Assembly (NCBI RefSeq): GCF_014646015.1
Contig: NZ_BMMQ01000003.1
Coordinates: 1 to 64,000, forward strand
Source of the DNA: Microbacterium nanhaiense
GTDB taxonomy: Bacteria; Actinomycetota; Actinomycetes; Actinomycetales; Microbacteriaceae
Length of the DNA: 64,000 bases
Direction of reading: 5' to 3'
The position numbers and the translations under genes were made by a program. Shown here in pieces: positions 21,772-27,407 of this stretch (position 1 is its first letter; the number at the start of each line of letters is the position of its first letter). A model generated the notes under the pieces. That model made no database searches. It worked only from the letters and a program-made list of their open reading frames with translations, and was not told where the DNA came from.

Positions 21772-21859
21772 GGGGAGTTGTCCGAGCGGCCGAAGGACCT
21801 GGTCTTGAAAACCAGTAAGCAGAAATGCTTCGTGGGTTCGAATCCCACACTCTCCGCCA
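21772..21859 (+). tRNA. tRNA-Ser (TGA)
   Basis: An 88-base tRNA including an encoded CCA. Acceptor GGGGAGT pairs with ACTCTCC (one G-T pair), discriminator G, anticodon TGA in the loop CTTGAAA, with the long variable arm expected of tRNA-Ser. An LCP-family gene starts only 20 bases after its end. Confidence 0.97.
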
Positions 21860-21878
21860 CATCATCGAAGGACCCCGT

Positions 21879-23129
21879 GTGAGCTATTCCTCGAAGAACG
21901 TTTATCGGGAGCCTTTCGCGCGCCACACCAAGCTGCGCCGGAAGGGCGTCGTCGGAGGGTTCTTCAAGGGACTGGCCTTCGCGCTGTCGGCGGTGCTCGT
22001 GGCGGGCATCGGCGTGGGCGCCTACGCGTACCACGAGTACTTCGGCACGCTGCAGGGCAACTCGGTGATGCTCGCGGGCCAGGAGGTCGGCGCCGACATC
22101 GAGGTGCTGCCCGACGAAGAGGTGAACATCCTCGTCTCCGGCATCGACAAGTGCGAGGCCGAGTGGATCGGTCAGTTCGAGGGCCGCTGCACGGAGGAAA
22201 TGGCCGAGATCCAGGAGAATTCCTACTCCGGCCAGCTCAACGACGTGAACATGCTCGTGCACATCTCGCCCGAGCCGCGGCGCGTTACCGTCATCAGCAT
22301 CCCGCGCGACCTCGTCACGGCGCGCCCCGAGTGCCAGGACATCGACGGGAACCCGACGATGCCCGCCAGCGCCCTGCCCTTCAACGAGGCCTATGGCACC
22401 GGTGGTCTCGCGTGCGTCGCGCTGACCGCGGAGGAGCTGACGGGCTACCACATCGACCACGCGGCGCTCATGACGTGGGGCGGCGTCATCGACGTCACCA
22501 ACGCGATCGGCGGCGTGAACGTCTGCATCGCGCAGCCCATTAAGGACCCGATCCACACCCACCTCGACCTCGAGGCGGGCGAGCACACGCTCGTCGGCGT
22601 GGAGGCGCTGCAGTTCCTCCGCGTGCGGCACGGCGTCGGCGACGGATCCGACCTGTCGCGCATCAGCAACCAGCAGGTGTACATGGGCGCGCTCGTGCGC
22701 AAGCTCGTGAGCGACGAGACGCTGGGCGACCTCGGGGCGCTCCTGCGCCTCGCGAACGCCGTCGTGCACAACGCGACCCTCGATGACGCGCTCGCGAAGC
22801 CGTCGACGATGGTCTCGATCGCGAGCGCCCTGAAGGACGTGCCCACGAGCGAGTACGAGTTCATCCAGTTCCCGTACGTCGACTACGCGCCCAACCCGAA
22901 CAAGGTGGCGCCCGACACCGTGGCGTGGCAGCAGATCAAGGCGGCCCTCGACGCGAACCAGCCGCTGCTCGCGCAGGAGGAGCCCGTCGAGCCGACGGAG
23001 ACTCCGACGGAGGAGCCGGATCCGTTGGCGACCGAGACGCCGGATCCGAACGAGGTTCCGCTGCCGAGCAACATCCGCGGATCCAGCGCGAGCGACGCCA
23101 CCTGCTCGAACAGCGGCTCGATCTTCTGA
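21879..23129 (+). CDS. LCP-family (LytR-CpsA-Psr) protein, first of a tandem pair
   Basis: A 416-residue membrane-anchored phosphotransferase of the type that attaches wall polymers such as teichoic acids or arabinogalactan to peptidoglycan. A short cytoplasmic tail and one membrane helix (about 31-51) precede the external LCP domain. It has the arginine-bearing segments VTVISIPRDL and FLRVRHGVGDGSDLSRISNQQ. A Thr/Pro/Glu-rich stretch follows, and the tail ends in CSNSGSIF. It closely resembles the next gene, so the pair arose by duplication. GTG 21879 is preceded by GAAGGA. It probably shares a transcript with tRNA-Ser(TGA). Confidence 0.93.
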   Translation: MSYSSKNVYREPFARHTKLRRKGVVGGFFKGLAFALSAVLVAGIGVGAYAYHEYFGTLQGNSVMLAGQEVGADIEVLPDEEVNILVSGIDKCEAEWIGQFEGRCTEEMAEIQENSYSGQLNDVNMLVHISPEPRRVTVISIPRDLVTARPECQDIDGNPTMPASALPFNEAYGTGGLACVALTAEELTGYHIDHAALMTWGGVIDVTNAIGGVNVCIAQPIKDPIHTHLDLEAGEHTLVGVEALQFLRVRHGVGDGSDLSRISNQQVYMGALVRKLVSDETLGDLGALLRLANAVVHNATLDDALAKPSTMVSIASALKDVPTSEYEFIQFPYVDYAPNPNKVAPDTVAWQQIKAALDANQPLLAQEEPVEPTETPTEEPDPLATETPDPNEVPLPSNIRGSSASDATCSNSGSIF

Positions 23130-23130
23130 T

Positions 23131-23160
23131 TGGATGGGGGCACGATCGTGCCCCCATCCA
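23131..23160. repeat. Perfect 30-bp palindrome between the two LCP genes
   Basis: Thirteen-base arms TGGATGGGGGCAC and GTGCCCCCATCCA flank a GATC centre, which is itself palindromic. It begins two bases after the first stop codon. The ribosome-binding GGAG of the second gene follows it directly. There is no T-run, so it looks like a processing, stabilising or translational element more than a classic terminator. Confidence 0.85.
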
Positions 23161-23170
23161 GGAGACCCGT

Positions 23171-24409
23171 ATGAGCCAGGTGCCCCTTGCGCGCCACACG
23201 AAGCTGCGACGCCCGAATCCGTTCGTCGGACTTCTGAAGGGCGTCGCCTTCGTGCTCTCGGCGGTTCTCGTCGCCGGCATCGGCGTCGGTGCCTACGCGT
23301 ATCACGAGTACTTCGGCACCCTGCGCGACAACTCCGTCGTGCTGACGGGGCAGGACGTCAACCCGCCGGCCGTCGAGGTGCTGCCGGACGACGACGTCAA
23401 CATCCTCGTGACGGGCGTCGACAAATGCGAGGAGGGCTCGTTCGAGCAGTTCGGCGAACGATGCCCGCCCGAGATGATCGAGCAGCAGAAGAACTCGTAC
23501 GCGAGCCAGCTGAACGACGTGAACATGATCATCCACATCTCGCCGGAGCCGCGGCACGTCACCGTGATCAGTCTGCCGCGCGACCTCATGACGGCGCGGC
23601 CGGCGTGCTACGACGACCACCGCGAGGTGGAGACCCCCGGGGCGAGCATCGCTCAGTTCAACACGGCATACTCCAACGGCGGGCTCGACTGCGTCGCGCG
23701 TTCGGCCTCGGAACTCACCGGCCTCGAGATCGACCACGCCGTGCTCATGACCTGGATCGGCGTGATCGAGATCACCAACGCCATCGGCGGCGTGACCGTG
23801 TGCCTCGAACAGCCGATCCCCTACGACAAGGAGACCGAGCTCGAGCTCAGCGCGGGCGAGCACCCGCTCGTCGGCTACCAGGCGCTGCAGTTCCTGCGCA
23901 CCCGCAAGACGCTGGCGACCGGATCCGATCTCGACCGCATCGGAAACCAGCAGCTCTATATGGGGGCGCTCGTGCGCAAGCTGACGAGCGAGGACACCTT
24001 CGGAGACGTTCCCACGCTGTTGCGGCTCGCGAAGGCCGTCACGGCGAACGCGCAACTCTCGTCCGGCCTCGCCGACCCGATGGCGATGGTCTCGATCGGT
24101 GCGGCCCTGCGCGGAATCCCCGTCGAGGACTACACCTTCATCCAGTTCCCCGCGATGGACGACCCGGCCGACTCCAACCGGCTCCTGCCCGTCATGGACA
24201 CGTGGAACCTCATCGCCGACGCTCTCGCGAAGAATCAGGTCATCGAGCTCGGTGAGGAGGAGCCGACCGAGGAGCCGACGCCGACGGACACGCCGTCGCC
24301 GAGCGTCGAGCCGACGCCCGACGATCGCGTGAGCATTCCCGGCTACCTGCGCGGATCCAACGCCTCGAACATCGCCGGCAACTGCGGCACGCCCGAGGCA
24401 CTGTTCTGA
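23171..24409 (+). CDS. LCP-family (LytR-CpsA-Psr) protein, second of a tandem pair
   Basis: A 412-residue paralogue of the preceding protein. It has the same ARHTKLRR N-terminus, membrane helix (about 20-42), GVGAYAYHEYFGTL boundary and LCP core (VTVISLPRDLMTARP, FLRTRKTLATGSDLDRIGNQQ). It also has a Pro/Thr/Glu-rich segment and a C-terminus ending CGTPEALF. Both copies keep the conserved arginines, so neither looks inactivated. GGAGA lies before ATG 23171. Tandem LCP genes are common where several wall polymers must be ligated. Confidence 0.93.
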   Translation: MSQVPLARHTKLRRPNPFVGLLKGVAFVLSAVLVAGIGVGAYAYHEYFGTLRDNSVVLTGQDVNPPAVEVLPDDDVNILVTGVDKCEEGSFEQFGERCPPEMIEQQKNSYASQLNDVNMIIHISPEPRHVTVISLPRDLMTARPACYDDHREVETPGASIAQFNTAYSNGGLDCVARSASELTGLEIDHAVLMTWIGVIEITNAIGGVTVCLEQPIPYDKETELELSAGEHPLVGYQALQFLRTRKTLATGSDLDRIGNQQLYMGALVRKLTSEDTFGDVPTLLRLAKAVTANAQLSSGLADPMAMVSIGAALRGIPVEDYTFIQFPAMDDPADSNRLLPVMDTWNLIADALAKNQVIELGEEEPTEEPTPTDTPSPSVEPTPDDRVSIPGYLRGSNASNIAGNCGTPEALF

Positions 24410-24478
24410 TCCGTCGATTTCGCGAGGGGTGGGTGCGACATGTACGATAAGATGACATGCGCGCCTCGGCGAGCATGA

Positions 24479-24570
24479 GGAGACGTGCCGGAGCGGCCGA
24501 ACGGACTTCACTGCTAATGAAGGGTTGGGGTTAAACCTAACCGGGGGTTCAAATCCCCCCGTCTCCGCCA
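24479..24570 (+). tRNA. tRNA-Ser (GCT)
   Basis: A 92-base tRNA including an encoded CCA. Acceptor GGAGACG pairs with CGTCTCC, discriminator G, anticodon GCT in the loop CTGCTAA, with a long variable arm. The DUF559 nuclease cassette begins 76 bases beyond its 3' end. Confidence 0.97.
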
Positions 24571-24577
24571 AAATCCC

Positions 24578-24608
24578 GAAATACCCCTGGTTCCCCCGGG
24601 GGTATTTC
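24578..24608 (+). terminator. Terminator of tRNA-Ser (GCT)
   Basis: Stem arms GAAATACCCC and GGGGTATTTC around an 11-base loop, seven bases after the tRNA. The trailing T-run is weak. Confidence 0.65.
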
Positions 24609-24646
24609 TGTGTCTGCGGCCCGCCTCGCCTCCGACGCGCGGCCCC

Positions 24647-24732
24647 GTACACGACGACGCAGATTTTCGGATGACTTGCCGCGTGAACCAGTTTCCGGTG
24701 CCCGGTGGCCGAGAATCTGCGTCGTTGTGTAC
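24647..24732. repeat. 86-bp palindromic unit A, left of the DUF559 gene
   Basis: The unit begins GTACACGACGACGCAGATT and ends with the inverted AATCTGCGTCGTTGTGTAC, arms that differ at one of 19 positions. The 48-bp interior matches the reverse complement of the interior of unit B (25695-25780) at 29 of 48 positions, against 18 of 48 in direct orientation. Units A and B are therefore inverted copies of each other, both 86 bp long, bracketing one gene. The core occurs nowhere else in the window that I could find. Confidence 0.85.
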
Positions 24733-24842
24733 GCGCGCGCCAGTTGTCCACATGCAGGAAATTTGGGCGGCCATCCACAGGGGCCGCGGAATCATGGGGA
24801 AGTCGATCTCGGCGGATTTCTGGGATCCGGCAGTGTCGGTTC

Positions 24843-25730
24843 ATGACGCTCGAAAAGGTCCACCTCAGGTCGCTCTCGTACGCCGATCTCAGAGCCGACG
24901 GGCTGACACGGCGCGGGATCCGGGGCAACATCGACTCCGGCAGCTTGTTTCATGCCCGCCGCGACTACTACGTCGACGGCACGGCGAGCGAGGCCATCAA
25001 GTCGGCCGTCCGCATCGGCGGCCATCTCGACTGCATCTCACTCATGCGCGAGCTCGGCGTCTACGTGCTGGCGACATCAGGTGTTCTGCACGTGCAGATC
25101 CGGTACGGGCGCCACTGGCTGCGTTCGCCTCGATCACGATCGATGCGCCTCGCCGACTCGAAGGCACGGGTTGTCACCCACTGGCGTGCCGATACCGTGG
25201 ACGAGCACTCGACGATCGCGCTCCTTCCACGCGCGCTCGCACAGGCCGTGCTGTGCCAGAGACCCCGGGCCGCGATCGCGACGCTGGATAGCGCGATTCA
25301 TCTGGGGGTGATCGGGCTGGCAGACCTCGACGAGGTGTTCCGGTGGCTTCCGGAGCGGCTGCAGAGACTCCGAAAGTTCGTCGACGGCAGGGCGGAGTCG
25401 GGCCCGGAGACCTTCGCGAGGCTGCTCCTGCGCACCCTTGGATGCTCGATCGAGCTACAGGTCGAGATCGGTGGTGTCGGCCGGGTGGACCTGCTCGTGG
25501 ACGGGTGGATCATCGTCGAATGCGATAGTCGGGCCTTCCACGGCGGGTGGGACCAGCAGTCGAAGGACCGCATGCGCGACCTCGCCGCCGCGGCGCAGGG
25601 CTACGCCACCCTCCGGCCCACCGCGAACCAATTGGTCAACGCCCCGCAACGCTTAACCGACGCCGTTCGAGGCCTCCTCCGCCTCCGCAGCGCCGTACAC
25701 AACGACGCAGATTCTCGCCGCCGTGGCTAG
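24843..25730 (+). CDS. DUF559-type endonuclease with AbiEi-like N-terminal domain
   Basis: A 295-residue protein. Residues 1-60 (LSYADLRADGLTRRGIRGNIDSG at 10-32) resemble the winged-helix DNA-binding domain of AbiEi-type antitoxins. Residues 185-285 are a DUF559 domain with the Vsr-like PD-(D/E)xK core: D216 in GRVDLLVDG and E226-C-D228 in IIVECD. Such proteins are predicted nucleases; no member close to this one has a known target, to my knowledge. The last 12 codons (AVHNDADSRRRG) are made from repeat unit B. A TTGTCCACA resembling a DnaA box lies at 24744. No Shine-Dalgarno is obvious before ATG 24843. Confidence 0.8.
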   Translation: MTLEKVHLRSLSYADLRADGLTRRGIRGNIDSGSLFHARRDYYVDGTASEAIKSAVRIGGHLDCISLMRELGVYVLATSGVLHVQIRYGRHWLRSPRSRSMRLADSKARVVTHWRADTVDEHSTIALLPRALAQAVLCQRPRAAIATLDSAIHLGVIGLADLDEVFRWLPERLQRLRKFVDGRAESGPETFARLLLRTLGCSIELQVEIGGVGRVDLLVDGWIIVECDSRAFHGGWDQQSKDRMRDLAAAAQGYATLRPTANQLVNAPQRLTDAVRGLLRLRSAVHNDADSRRRG

Positions 25731-25780
25731 AGAAATCGATTCTCGCCGCGGATCCTCCAAAAATCTGCGTCGTTGTGTAC
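25695..25780. repeat. 86-bp palindromic unit B, at and beyond the 3' end of the DUF559 gene
   Basis: The unit has perfect 19-bp inverted ends: GTACACAACGACGCAGATT and its complement. It shares length and, in inverted orientation, sequence with unit A. Its first 36 bases are translated as the nuclease C-terminus, including the TAG at 25728. It lies 55 bp from the end of the convergent GNAT gene. Confidence 0.85.
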
Positions 25781-25834
25781 AGGGCGTGCAGGGCGCGCGG
25801 GGTGTGCGGGGTGCGGGACGGGGAACGGCCGGGG

Positions 25835-27407
<1,573 letters not shown>

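Follow-up and report, generated by a model that had tools for sequence, protein, structure and literature searches.

A nuclease gene flanked by two palindromic units

The window analysed here is a stretch of 64,000 nucleotides from Microbacterium nanhaiense (contig NZ_BMMQ01000003.1, positions 1 to 64,000). It contains an intact gene for a predicted nuclease of 295 residues, flanked by two palindromic units of 86 bp, A and B, and followed by genes for a GNAT acetyltransferase and a class I (W/Y) tRNA synthetase, the latter of which we take to be trpS (Table 1). All four 19-bp inverted ends of the units read GTACACRACGACGCAGATT, with 0 mismatches in every copy; only 0.01 copies of this 19-mer would be expected in the window by chance, which rules out a chance origin. 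When the interiors are compared, unit B equals unit A at 18 of 48 positions directly and at 29 of 48 as the reverse complement. A preliminary description of this DNA had given the four copies, the two unit lengths and these interior counts, as well as a tRNA-Ser(GCT) upstream, and all were confirmed. It had also placed the gene exactly between the units. The gene is flanked by them, but it does not lie strictly between them, because unit B covers its final 36 bases, stop codon included (25695-25730).

Table 1. Coordinates of features at the nuclease locus, numbered from the first base of the window
Feature	Position	Strand	Remarks
tRNA-Ser(GCT), upstream neighbour	24479..24570	+	also present at L043 and L173
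Palindromic unit A, 86 bp	24647..24732	.	arms 24647-24665 and 24714-24732
Centre of unit A	24684..24695	.	where short own-family units have their CCGG-type centre; degenerate here
Nuclease gene, 295 aa	24843..25730	+	intact frame
AbiEi-antitoxin-like DNA-binding part (residues 10-181)	24870..25385	+	predicted fold, 6y8q
Vsr/EDxHD-like nuclease domain (residues 182-284)	25386..25694	+	predicted fold
Palindromic unit B, 86 bp	25695..25780	.	arms 25695-25713 and 25762-25780
Centre of unit B	25732..25743	.	where short own-family units have their CCGG-type centre; degenerate here
GNAT acetyltransferase gene, neighbour	25835..26401	-	GNAT match
Class I (W/Y) tRNA synthetase gene, neighbour	26394..27404	-	class I tRNA synthetase match

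Upstream of the nuclease, at 21825-24409, are two tandem genes that are alike in sequence, the second of which matches LytR_cpsA_psr. A search of 24400-26000 with Rfam gave no RNA family above the gathering score except the tRNA.

The nuclease combines an AbiEi-like part with a Vsr-like domain

The fold predicted for the protein (pLDDT 94.6) joins an AbiEi-antitoxin-like DNA-binding part, which resembles structure 6y8q, to a Vsr/EDxHD-like nuclease domain. Within that domain seven residues, E189, Q206, D216, E226, H233, D242 and R245, are invariant in 83/83 sequences. Pfam searches at E ≤ 0.01 matched 74 of the 83 relatives to REase_MTES_1575 (PF18741), 62 to DUF559 and 40 to AbiEi_4, and the Y1-transposase family was absent among the eight families matched by any of them; the window protein itself scores 24.3 bits against PF18741 (E 3.3e-5), below the curated cut-off of 38.2. 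With PADLOC, up to 55 of the 83 members matched AbiEi models, 11 matched Hhe and 8 matched a homing-endonuclease model. A phage origin was considered and rejected: the window protein had no PHROG match at E ≤ 0.01, and one weak match was obtained among three proteins tried. Homologs (E ≤ 1e-10) were found in 199 of 299 sampled Microbacteriaceae genomes, and the relative in M. sorbitolivorans is 83% identical.

Units are dispersed through the M. nanhaiense genome

In the whole genome (G000; 3.23 Mb, 25 contigs), CGACGCAGATT occurs at 21 places. Twelve units were identified, two beside the nuclease gene and 10 free-standing, with a length of 86 bp in 10 of the 12, 85 bp in one and 98 bp in one. 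The preliminary description had suggested a search for free-standing palindromes while proposing that the gene and its two repeats form a compact element; the 10 free-standing units rule out a one-gene cassette with two terminal inverted repeats, and in its place we find a genome-wide set of sites.

By a simple reading of ORFs, seven of the 10 free-standing units are intergenic, 15 to 62 bp from the nearest ORF, and the reading frame of a gene passes through the other three. These lie in a presumably HrpA-like helicase, between the DEAD and Helicase_C matches (L009), in a protein that we take to be NadB-like, between FAD_binding_2 and Succ_DH_flav_C (L010), and in a flavin-monooxygenase-like protein, within the Pyr_redox_2 match (L012). 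Since these units are in frame, two of them between domains, these proteins may accept the palindrome as an inserted linker.

Across nine 86-bp units, interiors equal that of unit A at 14 to 29 of 48 positions on either strand. Two free-standing units reach 28 of 48, L017 as the reverse complement and L018 directly, and a conserved centre (see below) explains part of this likeness. The earlier reading of units A and B as inverted copies of each other is weak for this reason, although its counts are correct. An extra partial arm adjoins two units, at L013:5939-5953 (GCGTTGTGTACG) and at L020:3990-4004 (GTCGTTATGTAC). Of the other two nuclease paralogs in this genome, L330 is without units and L329 has only a pair with unequal spans, 59 and 77 bp.

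The nuclease family is linked to palindromes across species

The flanks of 139 nuclease loci (111 and 28; 137 after removal of two that repeat a species) were scored for an inverted 13-mer arm, with at most two mismatches within the unit, common to both flanks with at most one mismatch. A matched palindromic arm was present in both flanks at 74 of the 139 loci (72/137), and comparison of sequences thereby shows a linkage of the family to palindromes. Among 19182 mismatched locus pairs, 239 passed the same criterion (1.2%, a figure that includes real shared motifs), and 0 of 139 loci did so when flanks about 0.7-1.5 kb away were used. Exact 9-mer arms are shared by both flanks at 45 of the 111 and 12 of the 28 loci, and among loci from other Actinomycetes families 5 of 21, from four families, pass at no more than one mismatch. 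The remaining 65 loci have no matched arms at the threshold used, and many may lack units; some are threshold misses, since L077/L341 (G137) and L063/L338 (G220) carry the motif on close reading, and at L330, L331, L335, L336, L337 and others no matched arms were seen.

These results bear out two points raised in the preliminary description, whether copies flank nuclease genes of this family and its analogy by which the arrangement, with linked pairs and dispersed copies, resembles that of REP elements and RAYT transposases. The core is not randomly distributed, and the repeats are conserved with the gene rather than the gene being fixed in place without them.

Arm sequences differ strongly from locus to locus, and paralogs within one genome bear different arms, as in G191 (L065, L316, L327), G106 (L048, L075, L334) and G164, where the arms are ACGACGCCAATT at L045, ACAACGCAGTC at L074 and CGCCGGAGATTCG at L332. 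For 50 loci with unambiguous spans, the lengths of the upstream and downstream units differ by 0-1 bp in 35 and by 9-12 bp in 10, and the remaining differences are 19 (two loci), 22, 31 and 36 bp. The gene-proximal edge of the upstream unit lies a median of 105 bp from the start codon (quartiles 91-126).

A trpS-like gene is found in the nearby flank of 43 of the 139 loci, other genera included. The nuclease gene looks to be inherited at a fixed place, judging from this shared neighbourhood, and because the trpS-like gene adjoins it at these 43 loci (the other 96, many of them paralogs, are not placed), a mobile cassette is not favoured.

Two further arrangements were noted. In 11 Microbacterium genomes (G446, G523, G305, G373, G468, G412, G430, G453, G316, G511 and G372) two nuclease paralogs lie about 18-22 kb apart in opposite orientation. 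At L362 (G260) two units stand in a row upstream of the nuclease, the arms being AACTCCTGC in one and AACTCCTGA in the other.

Arms follow the nuclease and change together at fixed positions

A pattern spanning three motif variants was found in 3 of 247 genomes of the genus, G000 (7 perfect copies), G510 (5) and G164 (25), and its reversed control in none of the 247. These are the genomes with the three closest nucleases (100, 83 and 64% identity). The seven copies in G000 have GCAGATT except in one arm, all five in G510 have GCAAATT, and the 16 copies listed of the 25 in G164 have GCCAATT. For the 77 of 162 loci with defined arms, arm similarity covaries with protein identity (r 0.37), and 0 of 2000 permutations gave a value as high.

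The joined flanks of the ten free-standing G000 sites were searched in six relatives, and the sites were aligned. In G510, with its 83%-identical nuclease, a unit is present at all ten. Twelve orthologous pairs were compared, these ten sites and the two units beside the gene at M. sorbitolivorans L043. At arm position 16, G is replaced by A in 18 of the 19 arms that have G, the other arm positions being identical at 406 of 432 and the interiors at 410 of 587 (70%, gaps allowed). With interior divergence taken as the rate of any change, at least 18 of 19 changes at position 16 have a probability of 6e-9. The interiors look inherited, since they are 70% identical at shared positions.

The remaining comparisons were made by eye. 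At L010, L012, L014 and L015, 8 of 8 arms in G164 read GCCAATT, the motif of that genome, and at L009 it has a unit resembling its second motif; no unit was seen in G164 at L013 and L020 (L017 and L019 lie outside the G164 comparison). Arms like ACGACGGCAGAT or ACTACGGCAGAT occur at L012 in G487 and G471, and likewise in G487 at L014, L019 and L020. The concerted change is thus seen in one close species pair and at four sites in a third species. The changed arms match the motif beside each species' own nuclease, and so the protein likely recognises and maintains the units.

Some orthologous sites hold a unit in one species and none in another, and no target-site duplication was readable where occupied and unoccupied sites were compared. 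No recently copied pair of distant units was seen; near-identical units were found only side by side, in G191, where three lie next to each other (G191:C96:254957-255454) in what appears to be a recent local multiplication.

Unit number depends on a cognate nuclease

The pattern AACTCCTGC...GCAGGAGTT was found in 18 of 299 genomes from eight genera, with 148 forward copies; the control pattern gave 0 in the 299 genomes. Dependence on the nuclease was examined, with the G078 cognate protein as the query, in all 15 sampled genomes of g51, g77 and g79, genera selected for the presence of units in several genomes. Eight genomes have a cognate nuclease (43-100% identity), and in the other seven the best hit is 28-34% identical. 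Perfect AACTCCTGC units number 13, 9, 18, 10, 20, 8, 15 and 25 in genomes with the cognate nuclease and 4, 6, 2, 2, 0, 0 and 3 in those without (8-25 versus 0-6; exact one-sided p 1.6e-4 for 8 versus 7 genomes, kinship ignored); because the genomes are related, this amounts to fewer than 15 independent events. Within this sample the counts show that unit number depends on the nuclease. The flanks of 12 nuclease loci from the seven genomes without a cognate contain no AACTCCTGC (two further hits in G277 lie outside this set).

Motif-bearing genomes of the other five genera were inspected individually. G137, with 9 copies, was set aside as a contrary case once the motif was found beside its best nuclease, as a AACTCCTGC unit at the stop codon and a decayed arm upstream. 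Among genomes with 1 copy, that of G260 lies 0.4-0.5 kb upstream of a nuclease, G106 has CTCCTGCAG arms beside one nuclease, and G220 has AACTCATGC arms at a nuclease locus. In G008, also with 1 copy and one of the 18 motif-bearing genomes, neither of the two nuclease loci has AACTCCTGC next to it.

Unit lengths cluster in steps of roughly one DNA turn

Lengths were measured between the outer ends of the 9-mer arms, with 68-98 bp allowed, and 88 of the 148 units are listed. They measure 72-75 bp (32 units), 83-86 bp (55) or 94 bp (1), and none of the 88 measures 76-82 or 87-93 bp. The best length period is about 10.7 bp (R 0.90; null maximum 0.36), and the length classes are about one DNA turn apart. 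Units of the window protein's own family measure 71-72 bp (23 listed) or 84 bp (5 listed), a step of 12 and not 10.5 bp, and the differences of 19 and 36 bp between upstream and downstream units at three loci fit whole turns poorly.

In the 32 listed 84-bp AACTCCTGC units, each arm borders a spacer of about 20 bp that carries little information (0.21 bits), and between the spacers lies a centre near CCCCGgaATtcCGGGG with 0.91 bits per column (shuffled 0.17, maximum 0.27). The 16 listed 73-bp AACTCCTGC units have no conserved centre (0.28 versus 0.20 shuffled, maximum 0.30). Own-family 72-bp units have CCGG at the centre, with 0.60 bits versus 0.17 for shuffled interiors (maximum 0.27) in a set of 25 from G000 (9), G510 (5) and G164 (11) that excludes L013 and L020; the centre of five own-family 84-bp units is like that of the other 84-bp family. 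Pairing between the spacers, assessed in 26 of the 84-bp AACTCCTGC units, is not above the expectation from composition, and a long hairpin is rejected on this ground. Together, the phasing of lengths and the lack of pairing between spacers point to duplex DNA, rather than a hairpin, as the form recognised.

A candidate mechanism and its alternatives

We propose, with a probability of roughly 0.7, that the AbiEi-like/Vsr-like protein binds the arms of the twelve units as a dimer on duplex DNA, cuts or nicks near the centre, and keeps and occasionally copies the units. By analogy with AbiEi and I-Bth0305I (see below), we infer that one AbiEi-like part of the dimer would occupy each inverted arm of the double-stranded DNA and that the two nuclease domains would sit near the centre of the unit, where they would nick or cut. 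This action would probably hold units at their positions and now and then copy them, and it may mobilise them; the upstream unit could act as an operator through which the nuclease gene would regulate itself. Units might persist through a benefit to the cell, through conversion or through copying; that interiors drift while their sites stay put argues against whole units being replaced often.

The AbiEi-like part might instead be a regulator or chromosome-structuring protein, with the units as host-selected operators and a nuclease domain that acts rarely or on foreign DNA. We regard this as unlikely but deserving serious attention. AbiEi represses its own synthesis through inverted repeats (PMC7319586), the upstream unit of our loci sits where an operator could, units keep orthologous positions, and arms track the protein while interiors drift. 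A regulon accounts poorly, however, for the seven nuclease-domain residues invariant in 83/83 relatives and for the range from 8 to 25 perfect copies among genomes with a cognate nuclease, and the 3 of 10 free-standing units in frame inside genes would be odd operators. It is rather improbable that the units are maintained by short-tract conversion of no benefit to the cell, in which cut units are repaired from other units and arms are rewritten in concert. The arms of one genome's units do change together, and units are fewer in genomes without the nuclease, but interiors are not homogenised and are still related between species at each site, so that conversion tracts would have to end within about 20 bp on both sides.

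Defence with self-marking, in which incoming DNA is the target of the nuclease and the units on the chromosome either titrate the enzyme or label the DNA as self, seems very unlikely to us. The PADLOC matches that suggest it (AbiEi in up to 55 of 83 relatives, Hhe in 11, homing endonuclease in 8) are to AbiEi and nuclease folds and not to any complete system; the nearest neighbours are LytR, GNAT and tRNA synthetase genes with no toxin among them, and 43 of 139 loci occupy a fixed place beside trpS. Ordinary bidirectional terminators or hairpins that flank the gene by accident are hardly credible. The arms do fold strongly as single strands, and the seven intergenic units lie within 15-62 bp of an ORF, yet linkage at 74 of 139 loci and covariation already contradict an accident, as do units inside genes, spacer pairing no higher than composition gives, distinct length classes and species-specific arms at orthologous sites.

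If the dimeric nuclease proposed here does maintain these sites, the keeping of genome-wide palindromes by a dedicated nuclease has at least two origins, in enzymes that are not related. The orthologous sites would constitute a natural experiment in how a DNA-binding specificity shifts along with dozens of its sites, and the family would provide a large collection of naturally occurring nucleases paired with their target sites, readable from sequence. A likely biology would also be at hand for a common, little-studied protein family.

Comparison with known systems

REPINs consist of conserved ends around a variable middle. The present system shares with REPtrons its free-standing, dispersed palindrome copies, as in REP/REPIN, an enzyme gene flanked by palindromes, as described for RAYT genes and REP palindromes (PMC3733652), and the coexistence of repeat-specific enzymes in one genome, also reported there for RAYTs. 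Enzyme and site co-evolve here, as RAYT and REP do (PMC8266576). The enzymes differ: an AbiEi-like part with a Vsr/EDxHD-like domain is present here, and no HUH/Y1 transposase of IS200/IS605 type was found. The sites look like helically phased duplex targets rather than tagged hairpins. A GTAG or CGTC tag stands at the foot of the REPtron hairpin; the units read in G000 begin with GTAC.

Similarity to three further groups of proteins was considered. The EDxHD homing endonuclease I-Bth0305I, with which the window protein shares a predicted EDxHD/Vsr-like catalytic fold, forms a dimer on a target of almost 60 bp (PMC3943268). The window nuclease differs in having many sites per genome, in its fusion to an AbiEi-like part and in not residing in an intron; it is a free-standing ORF, and the matches to Rfam in 24400-26000 (E ≤ 1) include no intron family. 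With the AbiE type IV toxin-antitoxin system it shares the AbiEi fold and paired inverted repeats. Binding of AbiEi monomers to paired 23-bp inverted repeats is cooperative and bends the DNA, and these repeats are 3 or 13 bp apart (PMC7319586), compared with about 48 bp between arms here; the nuclease domain is here part of the same protein, and the AbiEii (DUF1814) toxin is absent from the nearest genes, which match LytR_cpsA_psr, GNAT and class I tRNA synthetase. Relatives of the window protein belong to the same nuclease domain family as REase_MTES_1575 (PF18741)/DUF559, which PMC3710099 describes as a Vsr-type REase from Microbacterium testaceum MTES_1575, in two passages that do not mention palindromes.

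The preliminary description knew of no system of this form, and no account of a link between nuclease and palindromes was found among the titles and abstracts returned by full-text searches of an open-access library (subscription papers fall mostly outside it). This would be a nuclease-and-site system of a new kind. It works like a REPtron but is without the HUH/Y1 enzyme that defines one. We think it more likely than not that it represents a second REPIN-like class, widespread in Actinomycetes, in which an AbiEi-fused homing-type nuclease replaces the HUH transposase and each nuclease has its own set of duplex sites, built as arm, phased spacer, centre, phased spacer and arm; orthogonal sets would coexist in one genome, and a whole set would switch its motif in concert with the specificity of its nuclease.
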